In this document: piece after piece, positions 3,139 to 32,464 of the stretch | Layout of the letters: the number at the start of each line of letters is the position of its first letter | Position numbering within the stretch: position 1 is the first letter of the stretch | Virus record (IMG/VR): IMGVR_UViG_3300000101_000081 | Location: 107-32,570 of that record | Strand: one strand, 5' to 3' | DNA length: 32,464 bases | Origin: a virus | Notes under the pieces: model-generated | The model's input: only the letters and a program-made list of their open reading frames with translations | What the model was told of the DNA's origin: nothing | The model's database searches: none | Position numbers and translations under genes: made by a program

Positions 3139-4170
3139 ATGAGTTGGGAAAATCTATATCCAGAAGAAAATAATTTAGTTAAACTGTCCTTAGAGCATGG
3201 GGGTAGTATAAAACCTTTAATAATTCCAGGTAAATTTACAGGAGGAACGGGACTGTGTAATGCTACTATTTATAATGATGAAAATGAAGGATTATTAGTT
3301 AATATAAGGCATGTAGGATATGTTATGCACCATGTTGAATTTAACCAAAAATATTGGGGAATGTGGGGGTGTATGCAATACATGAATCCTGAAGAATTTG
3401 CATTTTTAGAAACAACTAATTATTTATGTCATTTAGATAATGATTTAAATATAAGTCGATCAAGTAAAATTGATACTACTAAACATGATAAACCTCCACT
3501 TTGGGATTTTATAGGACAAGAAGATGTGAGAATATTTAGATGGGACAATAAATTATATACTTGTGGTGTAAGGAGAGATATTGATAAAATTGGGACGGGA
3601 AGAATGGAAATGTGTGAAGTTATATTAGGTAATGAAGGATTTGTTGAAGTTACAAGAGATAGAATAGAAGTTCCTGAAAAGGATGGATATCTTGAAAAAA
3701 ATTGGATGCCTGTTTTAGATATGCCTTATCATTTTCTTAGACATGCTGATCCTGTAGAATTAGTTAAAGTTGATTGTAAAAATAAAAATTGTGAAGTAAT
3801 TGTAAAAAAAGATCCTAGTGAAAAAATTGCTAAAAAACTATCAGGTTGTGATTTAAGAGGAGGGTCACAAGTAATACCATTTGGGGAATATAGATTATGT
3901 ATTACTCATGAATGTTTTTTTCCATGGCATCCTGTTGGAAATGAAAAAGATGCTCATTATTATCATAGATTTGTTTTTTATGATAAAGATTGGAATATAG
4001 TTAAAATATCTAAACAATTTAAATTTATGGATGCTATGATAGAATTTAATTGTGGGTTAGCTGAAGTTGGTGATGATTTATTAATTACCTTTGGCTTTCA
4101 AGATAATGCTGCGTATGTACTTAAAATGCCTAAAATAATATTAGAAAAAATTGAATATGAGAAATTATAA
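3139..4170 (+). CDS. GH130-like beta-propeller protein
   Basis: A 343-residue protein whose pattern fits the five-bladed beta-propeller of GH130-type mannoside phosphorylases and related glycan-binding proteins. Seen: GQEDVRIFRWDNKLYTCGVRRD (split at residues 126-147), EKNWMPV (186-192), a DP pair (204-205), RGGSQVIPFGEYRLCITHECF (from residue 240) and a closing FNCGLAEVGDDLLITFGFQD. These correspond to the ED-x-R, K-N-W-x-P, D-P, G-G-S/T and final G-x-x-D landmarks of the fold. Enzyme activity is not assured. Its stop overlaps the next gene by 14 bases, so the two are probably translationally coupled. With the downstream TPR and glycosyltransferase genes it suggests glycan handling. Confidence 0.6.
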   Translation: MSWENLYPEENNLVKLSLEHGGSIKPLIIPGKFTGGTGLCNATIYNDENEGLLVNIRHVGYVMHHVEFNQKYWGMWGCMQYMNPEEFAFLETTNYLCHLDNDLNISRSSKIDTTKHDKPPLWDFIGQEDVRIFRWDNKLYTCGVRRDIDKIGTGRMEMCEVILGNEGFVEVTRDRIEVPEKDGYLEKNWMPVLDMPYHFLRHADPVELVKVDCKNKNCEVIVKKDPSEKIAKKLSGCDLRGGSQVIPFGEYRLCITHECFFPWHPVGNEKDAHYYHRFVFYDKDWNIVKISKQFKFMDAMIEFNCGLAEVGDDLLITFGFQDNAAYVLKMPKIILEKIEYEKL

Positions 4171-4768
4171 ATTAGAAAATAAATTAAATAAATATATCCT
4201 TAATCCTAGGAAAGATAGATGTAATTTTGAATTAGCAAATAGTTATTTTGATATAGAACAATACGCTTCAGCTATATCTTATTATTTAAGAAGTGCTGAA
4301 TTGTCTGAAAATGATGATTTAGTTTACGAAAGTTTATTATGTTCTTGGGATTGTATGGCTAAAGTAGGGGGTAGACCTGTATTTGAAAGAGGACAAATAC
4401 TTCAAGCAATATCACATTCTCCACATAGACCTGAAGCTTATAATGCTATGTGTTTATGGTTAGAATTTTGTGGACATAGAATTCCTTCTTCAGAAGAAAA
4501 ATATTTAACCATGTATTCATATGCTTGTATAGGAATTTCTAATATATTAAGTAATAAAGATTTTGAGTATTATAATAGGTATGATGGATATTTTGCATTT
4601 TTATATTATAAGGCTATTGCAGGGTGGTATATAGGAAAAACACAAGAAAGTAAGGAGTTATTTTTGGAATTAGCAAATAATCCTAATAACAATTTAAATG
4701 AAAGGTATAAAATATTAATAAAAGAAACCATTGAAAATATGGGGATTTCACATTTAGTCAAAGAATAA
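4157..4768 (+). CDS. TPR-repeat protein
   Basis: 203 residues from ATG 4157; a TTG two codons upstream is also possible. One clear tetratricopeptide-like unit is visible (FELANSYFDIEQYASAISYYLRSAEL), with further helical-hairpin patterns after it, including PHRPEAYNAMCLW and FLYYKAIAGWYIGKTQESKELFLELA. TPRs mediate protein-protein contacts, and TPR proteins of this type often sit beside or are fused to GT2 glycosyltransferases. Placed between the propeller protein and the glycosyltransferase, it may scaffold them (inference). No signal peptide or membrane segment. Confidence 0.7.
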   Translation: MRNYKLENKLNKYILNPRKDRCNFELANSYFDIEQYASAISYYLRSAELSENDDLVYESLLCSWDCMAKVGGRPVFERGQILQAISHSPHRPEAYNAMCLWLEFCGHRIPSSEEKYLTMYSYACIGISNILSNKDFEYYNRYDGYFAFLYYKAIAGWYIGKTQESKELFLELANNPNNNLNERYKILIKETIENMGISHLVKE

Positions 4769-6301: not shown

Positions 6302-6502
6302 ATGGATAAATTTCAAAAAGAGTTTTTAGATAAAGTAGGCAGTGATGAAATAATAAAAATTGCTAATATCCTAGATAGAGTAGGTTCTCAAGGAAAAATA
6401 GTAGAAGTAGTTTATTATGCCTTAACAACAATGTCTAAATCAGATGGGAATATGTCTCCTCTTTTAGCATTACAAATTGCTGAGGAGGATTGGGATATAT
6501 AA
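6302..6502 (+). CDS. Small hypothetical protein
   Basis: 66 residues, acidic at the C-terminus (AEEDWDI), predicted mostly helical, no recognisable domain. The ATG follows an A/T-rich leader 18 bases after the oxygenase stop, so it probably ends the cassette transcript. The -33 element of the tmRNA promoter lies inside its last codons. Confidence 0.7.
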   Translation: MDKFQKEFLDKVGSDEIIKIANILDRVGSQGKIVEVVYYALTTMSKSDGNMSPLLALQIAEEDWDI

Positions 6503-6508
6503 TATTTA
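6477..6508 (+). promoter_or_regulatory. Promoter of the tmRNA
   Basis: TTG (6477-6479), 21 bases, then AATATTTA (6501-6508), overlapping the stop of the upstream gene. The predicted start, about 4 bases after the element, is near 6512, right at the beginning of the tmRNA acceptor piece. This agreement supports both calls. Confidence 0.55.
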
Positions 6509-6575
6509 TATTTGATCGTTTATAGTTATATTAGCTACTTTTTGGACGTGGGTTCGATTCCCACCATCTCCACTA

Positions 6576-6594
6576 AATATATACAATAAAATAC
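6576..6594 (+). other. tmRNA intervening segment
   Basis: The AT-rich stretch between the acceptor 3' end and the GGGGATG 5' half. In known permuted tmRNAs an intervening sequence at this place is cut out by processing enzymes to leave two RNA pieces. Exact ends are uncertain because CCA is not encoded. Confidence 0.6.
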
Positions 6595-6652
6595 GGGGAT
6601 GTACAGGTATTTGACATAAAGATAAGGGTATAATGAAGATCAACGCATAACT

Positions 6653-6688
6653 GGCGAACAAGTTGAACTAGCGATGGCTGCTTAATAA
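6653..6688 (+). other. tmRNA tag reading frame (GEQVELAMAA)
   Basis: GGC at 6653 through GCT GCT, then tandem TAA stops at 6683-6688. The encoded tag GEQVELAMAA begins with Gly-Glu and ends in A-M-A-A, as do Bacteroidota tags such as GENNYALAA and GEESYAMAA. The resume codon is inferred from that similarity. Confidence 0.8.
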
Positions 6689-6742
6689 AGCACCCTAGCT
6701 AAACGGCAAATAGGGCAAGTCGTTAAAGCCCGGTGGTGGTGG

Positions 6743-6756
6743 ATCCCTTTAGGGAT
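6743..6756 (+). terminator. Hairpin at the tmRNA 3' end
   Basis: ATCCC (6743-6747), loop TTTA, GGGAT (6752-6756); a run of six T follows at 6765-6770 after an 8-base gap. It may be the last helix of the coding piece or a weak terminator. It abuts the -33 element of the next promoter. Confidence 0.45.
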
Positions 6757-6759
6757 AAT

Positions 6760-6790
6760 TTGGATTTTTTATGTAAAATTATTATATTTA
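6760..6790 (+). promoter_or_regulatory. Bacteroidota-type promoter of the 6797 gene
   Basis: TTG (6760-6762), exactly 20 bases, TATATTTA (6783-6790). The ATG at 6797 is only seven bases after the element, so the mRNA would have almost no leader. Confidence 0.7.
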
Positions 6791-8616: not shown

Positions 8617-9426
8617 ATGGATAATATAATAAATGCCGCTAAGAAAAAAAGACAGAAAAGAAATTATTTTACTCAAGAAACAGAAGATGCTATTGTTCAG
8701 TATAATTTAAGTAAAGATAAAAAGTTTAAAAGTGATATATACTCTAAAGAAATACATTATCCTTTTTACAAATTAACTGAAAATATAATTCATACCTTTA
8801 AATTTTATTATACTGATGGGGTTGAAAATCTAGAAGATCTTCAACATGAAATTATGGTATTTCTTTTAGATAAAATTCATCTTTTTGATCCTTCAAAAGG
8901 TGCTAAAGCTTATTCTTATTTTGGTACTATTGTAAAAAGATGGTTAATAGTATATAATCAAAAAAATTATAAGAAAAAAATAGAATCTATTGATATAGGA
9001 GATATATCTAAACATCAAAATTTAGATATTGGAGATAATTCATTTTTTATATTAAATACTAAGTTAGAACAATCTTCACAAAAGTTTGTAGAATCAGACA
9101 GTAACTTTGGAGATGAACTATATACTCAAGGGTATAAAGAAGGAGATAGATTATCTATTTTTGTTGATTTATATGTAAAACATATGACTAAATATATTTT
9201 TAATTATTTTCCTAAAGAATATGATGCTCAAATAGCTGATTGCATTCTAGAATTATTTAGAAAAAGAGATGCTATTGATGTATTTAATAAAAAAGCACTT
9301 TATATCTACATAAGAGAAATGATTGATGTTAAAACTCCTAAAATAACTAAAATAGCTAATAAATTATATAAAGTATTTAAGGAAAAATATATAGTATATT
9401 CTGAAGCAGGATATTTTCCATCTTAA
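8617..9426 (+). CDS. 55: Late sigma factor, gp55-like
   Basis: 269 residues, longer than T4 gp55 (185). The central part (about 50-120) reads as sigma region 2: FYKLTENIIHTFKFYY, then ENLEDLQHEIMVFLLDKI, FDPSKGAKAYSYFGTIVKRWLIVYNQKNYKKK. The final YFGTIVKRWLI..NxxNYKKK stretch fits the region 2 core helix that contacts the -10 element. gp55 directs RNA polymerase to late promoters in T4-like phages. It is the last gene before the tail block, which has a different element-only promoter motif (9441). Confidence 0.75.
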   Translation: MDNIINAAKKKRQKRNYFTQETEDAIVQYNLSKDKKFKSDIYSKEIHYPFYKLTENIIHTFKFYYTDGVENLEDLQHEIMVFLLDKIHLFDPSKGAKAYSYFGTIVKRWLIVYNQKNYKKKIESIDIGDISKHQNLDIGDNSFFILNTKLEQSSQKFVESDSNFGDELYTQGYKEGDRLSIFVDLYVKHMTKYIFNYFPKEYDAQIADCILELFRKRDAIDVFNKKALYIYIREMIDVKTPKITKIANKLYKVFKEKYIVYSEAGYFPS

Positions 9427-31015: not shown

Positions 31016-31834
31016 ATGGACGACTTTAATTATAAAAAATATGTAGCAGAAGGTAGGCTATTAAAAGAGGCTACAGATGCGCCTAAAGCTATAATTTTAG
31101 CAGGAGCTCCTGGAGCTGGTAAAGGATATATATTAAAAGGTTTAGACTTAGGTGGTTTAAAAATAATGAATATTGATAATATTTTTGTTGATATGTTAAA
31201 ACAAGCTAATGTATCATTAGATTTAAAAAATGCTACACCTGAAGAAAGAAGTCAACAAGCTAAATCAATGGCTCAAGCTAATAAAAATTTTAAAGGTGAT
31301 ATAGCTGCTACTATTGAAGGTAAAGAATCATTTATATTAGATGGTACAGCAGCTTCATTTAATAATACTGTTAAATTAAAAAATGAATTAGAAGAAGCTG
31401 GATATGAAGTGTTTATGCTATATGTGTATACTGATTTACAACGTTCACTAAGCCAAAATCAAGATAGATACACAAAATCAGGAGGGGAAGATAGAAGTTT
31501 AGCTCCTGCAATTGTAATGCGTACTTGGAAAAGTGTAACAGATAATTTACCTAAATACGCTAATTTATTTGGAAATAATTTTGTAGCAGTAGCTAACACA
31601 TTAGATGATAGAATGCAAGATATAGATAAGATTATAAAAAAATACCTTGACCCATTTAAACCAGAAAATACAAAACCTAAAACCCCATCACAAATAGAAA
31701 AATCTAAAATTCAAAAAGCAGAATTAAATGCTGAAATTCAAGATATGTTAAGTGATGAATTTTTACAGGATGTAATTGAATACACTATGTCTAAAGAAGA
31801 AGCACAAATGAGATTAAAACAATTTTTAGCTTAA
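31016..31834 (+). CDS. P-loop kinase, zeta-toxin-like
   Basis: 272 residues. Walker A GAPGAGKG (residues 30-37), a following Asp54 in MNIDNIF, and ESFILDGT (Asp109) give the layout of a zeta-toxin/gluconate-kinase-like P-loop NTPase. LQRSLSQNQDRY could hold lid residues. The C-terminal about 50 residues are a charged helical extension. The substrate is unknown; in phages such enzymes are often polynucleotide or small-molecule kinases. It overlaps the next start by one base. Confidence 0.75.
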   Translation: MDDFNYKKYVAEGRLLKEATDAPKAIILAGAPGAGKGYILKGLDLGGLKIMNIDNIFVDMLKQANVSLDLKNATPEERSQQAKSMAQANKNFKGDIAATIEGKESFILDGTAASFNNTVKLKNELEEAGYEVFMLYVYTDLQRSLSQNQDRYTKSGGEDRSLAPAIVMRTWKSVTDNLPKYANLFGNNFVAVANTLDDRMQDIDKIIKKYLDPFKPENTKPKTPSQIEKSKIQKAELNAEIQDMLSDEFLQDVIEYTMSKEEAQMRLKQFLA

Positions 31835-32464
31835 TGAATAAATTAACAAAATCATTATTAGAAGGGTTATTGCCCGAAAATAAAAATAAAATAGTTGCTT
31901 TATATGGTGGGGGTTTTAAACCACCTATAGGGGGACATTTTGAAGTAGTAGATGAAGCTTTAAAACAATACCCTGAAATTGATGAATTAATAATATTAGT
32001 AGGTAGTGGTGAAAGAAATGGTATATCTCAAGCAGAAGCTATTTTAATTTGGGAAATATATCAGAATTATTTACCACCTAAAGTTAAAATACAACCTTCA
32101 AAAATGCCTATTGGTGATATTTATAGCTTTGCTAAAAATAATCCTCAAGATATTATCTACTGGATAATAGGTAAAAGAGAAGGAGCTGATGATGATGAAA
32201 GAGATATTATAGATAGAGCAAAAGCTTTAAAGAAAAATCCTGAAAAGTATAATAATTTAGATTTAAAAGTTGTTACTACACAAGATGAAGGTATGAGAGG
32301 TAGAAACGCTAGAGCAGCAGCTAAAAAAGGAAAAGCATATTTTACCCCATTTCTACCAAATATTTTATCAAAAGAAGATAAAGAAATGGTATTTAACATA
32401 GTTTCACCTGTATTAAATGAAAATGCTACATATTCTAGTGAAATAGATTATAAACAGATGATTC
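31834..32464 (+). CDS. Nucleotidyltransferase-like protein, partial
   Basis: Open to the window end (210 residues seen, from ATG 31834 overlapping the previous TAA). VALYGGGFKPPIGGHFEVVD (residues 21-40) matches the cytidylyl/NMN adenylyltransferase nucleotide-binding loop, with the first His of H-x-G-H replaced by Ile-Gly before G-H. IIYWIIGKRE and GMRGRNARAA fit the later motifs, the latter replacing the usual I-S-S-T-x-x-R. Probably transfers a nucleotide to a phosphate-containing substrate; the substrate is not readable. Paired with the upstream kinase. Confidence 0.75.
   Translation, partial: MNKLTKSLLEGLLPENKNKIVALYGGGFKPPIGGHFEVVDEALKQYPEIDELIILVGSGERNGISQAEAILIWEIYQNYLPPKVKIQPSKMPIGDIYSFAKNNPQDIIYWIIGKREGADDDERDIIDRAKALKKNPEKYNNLDLKVVTTQDEGMRGRNARAAAKKGKAYFTPFLPNILSKEDKEMVFNIVSPVLNENATYSSEIDYKQMI

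Follow-up and report, generated by a model that had tools for sequence, protein, structure and literature searches.

Permutation of the tmRNA gene is rare and has so far been tied to three bacterial lineages; the two-piece forms described come from alphaproteobacteria, some betaproteobacteria and cyanobacteria, and have fewer pseudoknots (PMC3968760, PMC11915505). A stretch of 32,464 nt from a virus contig of 32,570 bases, referred to here as the window, was predicted to carry such a gene, and this raises the questions of whether the gene is genuine, where its permutation came from and what it might do for a phage. The gene is complete and circularly permuted (two-piece), and spans about 6513–6735 on the plus strand. 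Sequence comparison makes it probable that this permuted tmRNA gene is functional and that it belongs to a large phage with a contractile tail, whose host is most likely a marine bacterium of the Bacteroidota.

Anatomy of the gene

The only RNA gene returned by ARAGORN in the window is a permuted tmRNA* at 6483–6776, with the tag GEQVELAMAA, which has a hydrophobic Ala-Ala end and is followed by two stop codons. An Rfam scan of the window likewise gave a single family above its cut-off, RF04321 (tmRNA_permuted, covering the alpha, beta and cyano permuted forms), at 6514–6685. This match is full-length and scores 65.6 bits against a cut-off of 47, and its E-value of 1.1e-10 for the whole window excludes chance as the source of the call. 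The original prediction of a phage gene of the permuted, two-piece type is therefore borne out by both programs. The encoded order is 3′ half upstream and 5′ half downstream and, as had been proposed, T-arm and acceptor strand precede a 5′ half starting GGGGATG, which leads into a tag frame and a pseudoknot (Table 1). The 7-bp acceptor pairing with a G–U wobble, also part of that proposal, is present, with the wobble as G3–U70.

The space between H2 and the resume codon is too small for PK1 and the pseudoknot count is reduced to one, downstream, making this a very small natural tmRNA. The gene does not encode a CCA tail and has ACTA instead. Minimum-energy folding of the tmRNA sequence on its own was unremarkable (z = -0.42), which is no surprise for an RNA of 29% GC that contains a pseudoknot. 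Two relatives, L027 and L032, have a stronger hairpin (GAGCAAC-UUCG-GUUGCUC-UUUUU) at the position of the terminator-like element.

Table 1. Features of the permuted tmRNA gene and its surroundings, in window coordinates
Feature	Position	Strand	Details
Promoter-like box ATATTTATA	6502–6510	+	Just 5′ of the tmRNA gene
Acceptor piece (3′ half)	6514–6573	+	H2 3′ strand, T-arm, acceptor 3′ strand, then AC; RF04321, covariation
Distal H2 strand GATC	6514–6517	+	Partner 6638–6641; 100% paired (n=45); two-sided changes at 3/4 pairs
Inner H2 strand GTTATATT	6525–6532	+	Partner 6627–6634; 99.4% of cells paired; two-sided changes at 3/8 pairs
3′ tRNA domain	6537–6573	+	ARAGORN
T-arm	6548–6564	+	UUCGA loop
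Acceptor 3′ strand CATCTCC	6565–6571	+	
Intervening segment, 21 nt	6574–6594	+	Removal on processing expected
Start of coding piece (5′ half)	6595–6641	+	D-arm-like segment with TTTGACA, H2 5′ strand
Acceptor 5′ strand GGGGATG	6595–6601	+	
5′ tRNA domain	6595–6622	+	ARAGORN
Resume hairpin UAACU-GGCGAACA-AGUUG	6648–6665	+	Conserved; resume codon GGC opens the loop
Resume codon GGC	6653	+	
Tag frame GEQVELAMAA + UAA UAA	6653–6688 (tag to 6682)	+	ARAGORN
Small stop-codon helix GCUU/AAGC, H5-like	6680–6691	+	One pair two-sided: C–G/U–A/G–C
Single H-type pseudoknot	6703–6731	+	ACGGC 6703–6707/GUCGU 6719–6723; GGGC 6713–6716/GCCC 6728–6731
Terminator-like hairpin ATCCCTTTAGGGAT and later T run	6743–6770	+	One found against 0.4 expected

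Conservation and covariation among relatives

Relatives were collected with two neighbouring genes and DNA patterns as queries, which gave at least 114 loci with the same gene type and at least 58 distinct sequences, all in the permuted order. Recurrence of the arrangement in related phages had been proposed as a check, and more than 50 distinct virus-contig sequences keep it. For most of the distinct types the contigs also encode relatives of the window's neighbouring genes, and the RF04321 cut-off is exceeded in 14/14 larger virus records. The sample understates the number of permuted tmRNAs of other kinds. Some permuted ARAGORN calls, for instance L362 (BRock), appear to be spurious and were left out.

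Pairing was scored in an alignment of 45 sequences (A1), over 39 pairs in seven helices. Paired states fill 99.8% of cells against 92.4% in shuffles, two-sided changes occur at 12 pairs against 7.0 in shuffles, and in a control in which the partners were slid pairing never rose above 48.5%. Compensatory changes are found in the acceptor stem, T-stem, H2, stop-codon helix and downstream pseudoknot; for the acceptor and T-stem the pairing is partly a selection effect, since ARAGORN and the parser search for it, whereas no such bias touches H2, the stop-codon helix or the pseudoknot. The acceptor G–U pair is kept in all 45 aligned sequences. The variable fifth acceptor pair is C–G in 23, U–A in 19 and G–C in 3 of them, and the foot of H2 varies in step (GATC/GATC, GACC/GGTC, GAAC/GTTC and others). 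In L166, which was excluded from A1, acceptor pairing persists through G–U.

RF04321 does not cover the downstream pseudoknot, which rests on covariation in the relatives. Its first stem is paired in 99.6% of the A1 cells. The second, scored by a strict search that replaced a looser automatic one, takes seven compensating forms in 44/58 relatives, namely GAAGC/GCUUC, GGGC/GCCC, GAGGU/ACCUC, GGGAC/GUCCC, GAGAC/GUCUC, AGGAU/AUCCU and GGGAU/AUCCC. The intervening segment, counted after its first three bases, measures 14–20 nt in 54/59 relatives and 66–88 nt in five. In L153, L155, L217, L218 and L240 the intervening segment is extended by about 50 nt and contains inverted repeats rich in A and T (ATTATATTC...GATATAAT).

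A decayed remnant or an assembly artefact would find some encouragement in one relative, L372, which near position 2431 retains the acceptor piece, tag and pseudoknot but has lost the stretch of the 5′ half that normally separates the acceptor strand from the resume region, namely the 5′ acceptor strand and the D-arm segment, a lesion that reflects either loss of function or misassembly. Nevertheless, numerous metagenome assemblies made independently of one another show the same order, and the helices covary, so that such an account is scarcely credible in general and, for the window copy, is already refuted by conservation. The gene is at the same time accessory or dispensable, as it is missing from the same place in the close relatives L011, L012, L014, L023, L026, L052 and L068.

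Origin of the permutation and the host

The original prediction knew of no described example of a permuted tmRNA in a phage with a Bacteroidota-type tag. This has to be revised in part, since phage permuted tmRNAs have been published and GenBank holds cases from bacteroidophages. A survey of 133 unique phage tmRNAs recorded 53 two-piece forms, 50 of these marine or aquatic, with the OM43 (Methylophilales) phage Melnitz given as an example (PMC9004378). The tmRNAs of Melnitz and Pelagibacter phages resemble the window gene in being phage-borne, permuted and marine (PMC9004378), but they are of alphaproteobacterial type and are associated with an early promoter as well as a glutamine riboswitch, whereas the window gene is of bacteroidotal type and its promoter-like box also stands before some tail and baseplate genes. 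In GenBank, annotated tmRNAs proved on inspection to be permuted in the Chryseobacterium phage MA9V-3 (PV245944; L402) and in the crAss-like phages cr10_1, cr50_1, cr60_1, cr114_1 and cr125_1 (L361, L403–L406), four of them exceeding the RF04321 cut-off; no paper describing permuted tmRNAs of bacteroidophages was found in a search that lay mostly outside the subscription journals. What looks new is the lineage, a family that stands apart from the alpha, beta and cyano forms and has kept bacteroidotal sequence.

The crAss-like (Crassvirales) tmRNAs share the permuted order and glycine resume codon, group with the window family, and in cr60_1, cr114_1 and cr125_1 have the same ACGGC/GUCGU pseudoknot. 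They differ in an intervening segment of about 100–260 nt, which in cr114_1 has a tRNA inside, in tags such as GNFYVTDYTRIAA and in coming from the gut rather than the sea. RAGATH RNAs and a hatchet ribozyme lie near these genes. The MA9V-3 gene is likewise permuted, and comes from a cultured phage with a Bacteroidota host; it differs in its 17-residue tag (GNVIDINKYVAKLEVAA), in TTTCGACAG and in other 3′ structures.

With the alpha, beta and cyano two-piece tmRNAs of RF04321 the window family shares the permuted order, G–U acceptor, T-arm, H2, short intervening segment and tag frame. It differs from them in grouping with standard Bacteroidota genes, in having UUUGACA rather than UUCGAC, and in its glycine resume codon set in a conserved hairpin, the lack of room for PK1 and the one downstream pseudoknot. 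Nearly all other permuted virus tmRNAs have TTCGAC and an alanine resume codon. Five standard Bacteroidota tmRNAs (L364–L368) have in common with the phage clade TTTTGACAG or TTTGACAG, the former or the latter also being present in the Cellulophaga phages Calle_1 and phi38:1, together with [A/T]TGGCGAA and the signatures UUUGACAG and ACUGGCGAA. The glycine resume codon, its AACTGGCGAA context and the resume context ACTGGCGAA are likewise found in both the window family and the standard genes, which differ in being unpermuted, in their full set of pseudoknots and in the tag GENNYALAA or GETNYALAA. The Bacteroidota-type tag of the original prediction accordingly stands as regards start and resume context, but the tag itself, GEQVELAMAA, departs from these canonical sequences. 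The two Cellulophaga phages (L400, L401) carry a tmRNA of standard form with a 22-residue tag, AQIEANMEAVNAILNLEVAVGV; that of Calle_1 is annotated at shifted coordinates and that of phi38:1 is unannotated.

In two trees the phage clade joins the standard Bacteroidota tmRNAs with support of 98/98 and 100/99, apart from 42–43 other permuted virus tmRNAs and E. coli; the crAss-like permuted genes fall with them, and in the second tree one Mycobacterium phage gene also lies inside the clade, on a long branch. These trees rest on 87–89 alignment columns, and AU tests of a single clade of all permuted genes gave p = 0.074 and 0.116, which does not reject it. A separate permutation in bacteroidophages is therefore favoured and not proven. 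We give about even chances to a fuller scenario of a fourth independent origin of permuted tmRNA, in which a bacteroidotal gene was permuted in phages (immuto-like marine myoviruses together with crAss-like phages of the gut) but stayed in one piece in the host lineage, with long-tag and tRNA-Ala forms following later.

Descent by transfer from an alpha, beta or cyano permuted lineage, as proposed for Melnitz, is compatible with those AU values and with a usable alignment of fewer than 90 columns. It appears unlikely given the position of the clade beside the standard Bacteroidota tmRNAs, its TTTGACA and glycine resume codon in a context like theirs, and a low-threshold Rfam scan that kept a truncated standard-model match as the best of its clan. 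Should bacteroidophages indeed have their own line, viruses would be where permutation originated or was maintained while their hosts used one-piece tmRNA, and phages may therefore serve both to store and to try out tmRNA architectures.

The host is likely to be a marine bacterium of the Bacteroidota. Among cultured phages the closest relative is Flavobacterium phage immuto, which has the same gene order and is 44.9% identical across 99% of the baseplate wedge protein and 46.4% across the primase; a scan covering 99% of the immuto genome found no tmRNA. A Shine–Dalgarno motif precedes only 1/28 ORFs in the window, and the 12 bases preceding the starts are 60% A. A tRNA-Ala in the relative L151 matches mostly Bacteroidota replicons, the best being Flammeovirga at 84%. 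The assignment is not certain, because another relative, phage Mel-JY01, was recorded from Microcystis, a cyanobacterium. As a control, one Bacteroidota genome, that of Bacteroides ihuae, gave no RF04321 match.

The same permuted tmRNA, with the tag GEQVEMAMAA, was observed at 4220–4511 of a contig binned as Candidatus Nitrosopelagicus (L360, CALBOT010000027.1). This is probably a misbinned phage contig, so that at least one phage tmRNA has been binned into an archaeal genome, and misbinning of phages may be a source of some reported archaeal tmRNAs. Among 398 genomes of that archaeal phylum only one, L360's own, exceeded the RF04321 cut-off, so that this case does not account for archaeal tmRNAs in general. 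One L360 protein was suspected of having a type IX secretion end, which would have marked the host, but NCBIfam and Pfam gave no support.

Expression, proposed role and tag variants

A TATTTAT motif lies just before H2 at a near-constant distance in 55/59 relatives, compared with 1.4% of background windows. Its form in the window, ATATTTATA, occurs there in seven copies, all at gene borders, two of which take in the final base or bases of a stop codon. Five copies lie 13–27 nt before an ORF start and one before the tmRNA, and the seventh, at 32117, is followed by no called ORF. The ORFs headed in this way include those of a small protein ahead of the baseplate genes and a protein behind the long tail gene. 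This pattern suggests that a phage-type promoter drives the tmRNA, perhaps alongside structural genes. A scan of the window for sigma-70 promoters gave no useful excess (14 against 9.8). The protein encoded at 8617–9426 contains sigma-70 region 2 (PF04542) and could be a candidate phage sigma factor for these boxes. One of the boxes stands in front of 31016–31834, which encodes a protein whose kinase domain resembles that of zeta toxins (Pfam PF06414, E = 3.5e-16).

The likely role of the RNA is ribosome rescue and tagging together with host SmpB; the host protein must serve, since 14 contigs of the phage group yielded no SmpB gene. From the anatomy we infer how the RNA would be transcribed, processed, charged and used for tagging, and what the phage would gain. 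The box, of a promoter class probably common to the tmRNA and some tail and baseplate genes, would start the transcript at the foot of H2; the acceptor stem would then fold around the short intervening segment, a loop which host tRNA-processing enzymes would excise, RNase P cutting at G1 before 3′ trimming and CCA addition. The two resulting RNAs, joined through acceptor stem and H2, would be charged by host alanyl-tRNA synthetase via G3–U70, enter stalled ribosomes with host SmpB and restart translation at GGC, so that A-GEQVELAMAA is added before the stop. In this way the phage would contribute a ribosome-rescue capacity and a degradation tag of its own. The main effect may lie in restoring ribosomes, in countering mRNA-cleaving host defences or in altering the fate of tagged proteins. 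The family ranges from marine phages to human-gut crAss-like phages, and a rescue role during infection is testable in the latter.

An RNA that merely occupied SmpB or ribosomes would instead act as a decoy that inhibits host trans-translation, as reported for a tagless tmRNA form of phage DS6A (PMC11915505), and phage tmRNAs are said, in work cited by that paper, to be capable of interfering with host tmRNA. The tag unlike that of the host and the structure cut down to one downstream pseudoknot without PK1 would suit such a competitor, but two-piece tmRNAs with few pseudoknots are active (PMC3968760), and tag frame, resume codon and stops are intact in 58/58 relatives, with TAA, TAG and TGA all serving as stop. 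A decoy would not need these features, and we regard it as improbable beside the rescue and tagging role.

Synonymous changes in the tag occur at codons 7, 9 and 10. Short tags of the relatives all end in AMAA, as opposed to ALAA in the host-type tag, and longer tags of 36–37 residues (for example GKQVNTTIASIFASLSAIRSLSQETIVAKEQVFAMAA), ending AMAA, LMAA or AMAV, are found in a subgroup of seven loci (L261, L262, L293, L351, L354, L372 and L384) and in the L047 group (L047–L050, L267, L305, L330 and L341); in L354, 35 residues are visible before the contig end intervenes. These endings and the long-tag subgroup lend some weight to the possibility, which we hold tentatively, that the phage tag steers rescued peptides from or to particular host proteases while ribosomes are freed, for example during mRNA cleavage by host toxins, although this extends the rescue and tagging role and implies no alternative anatomy.

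The long tags exceed the published range of 8–35 residues (PMC3968760), and the relatives thus supply a natural series from short to long tags. In most long-tag relatives the resume hairpin changes from AACU/AGUU to AACC/GGUU, a compensatory change. For most of them the tag given by ARAGORN is wrong: its calls of VKARWMVGIFFNLKVT for L047 and AKEQVFAMAA for L261 and L293 were rejected as mis-set, the true frames having 36 and 37 residues. The long tags keep frame and length only; no purifying selection at the protein level was shown for them, with non-synonymous changes at least as many as synonymous ones in every pair. Two relatives carry a tRNA within the intervening segment, a feature that had been called unique to one nominally archaeal gene (PMC11915505): L151 has tRNA-Ala(TGC) at 3674–3748 on the minus strand, and L384 a tRNA-Ala before position 4599.
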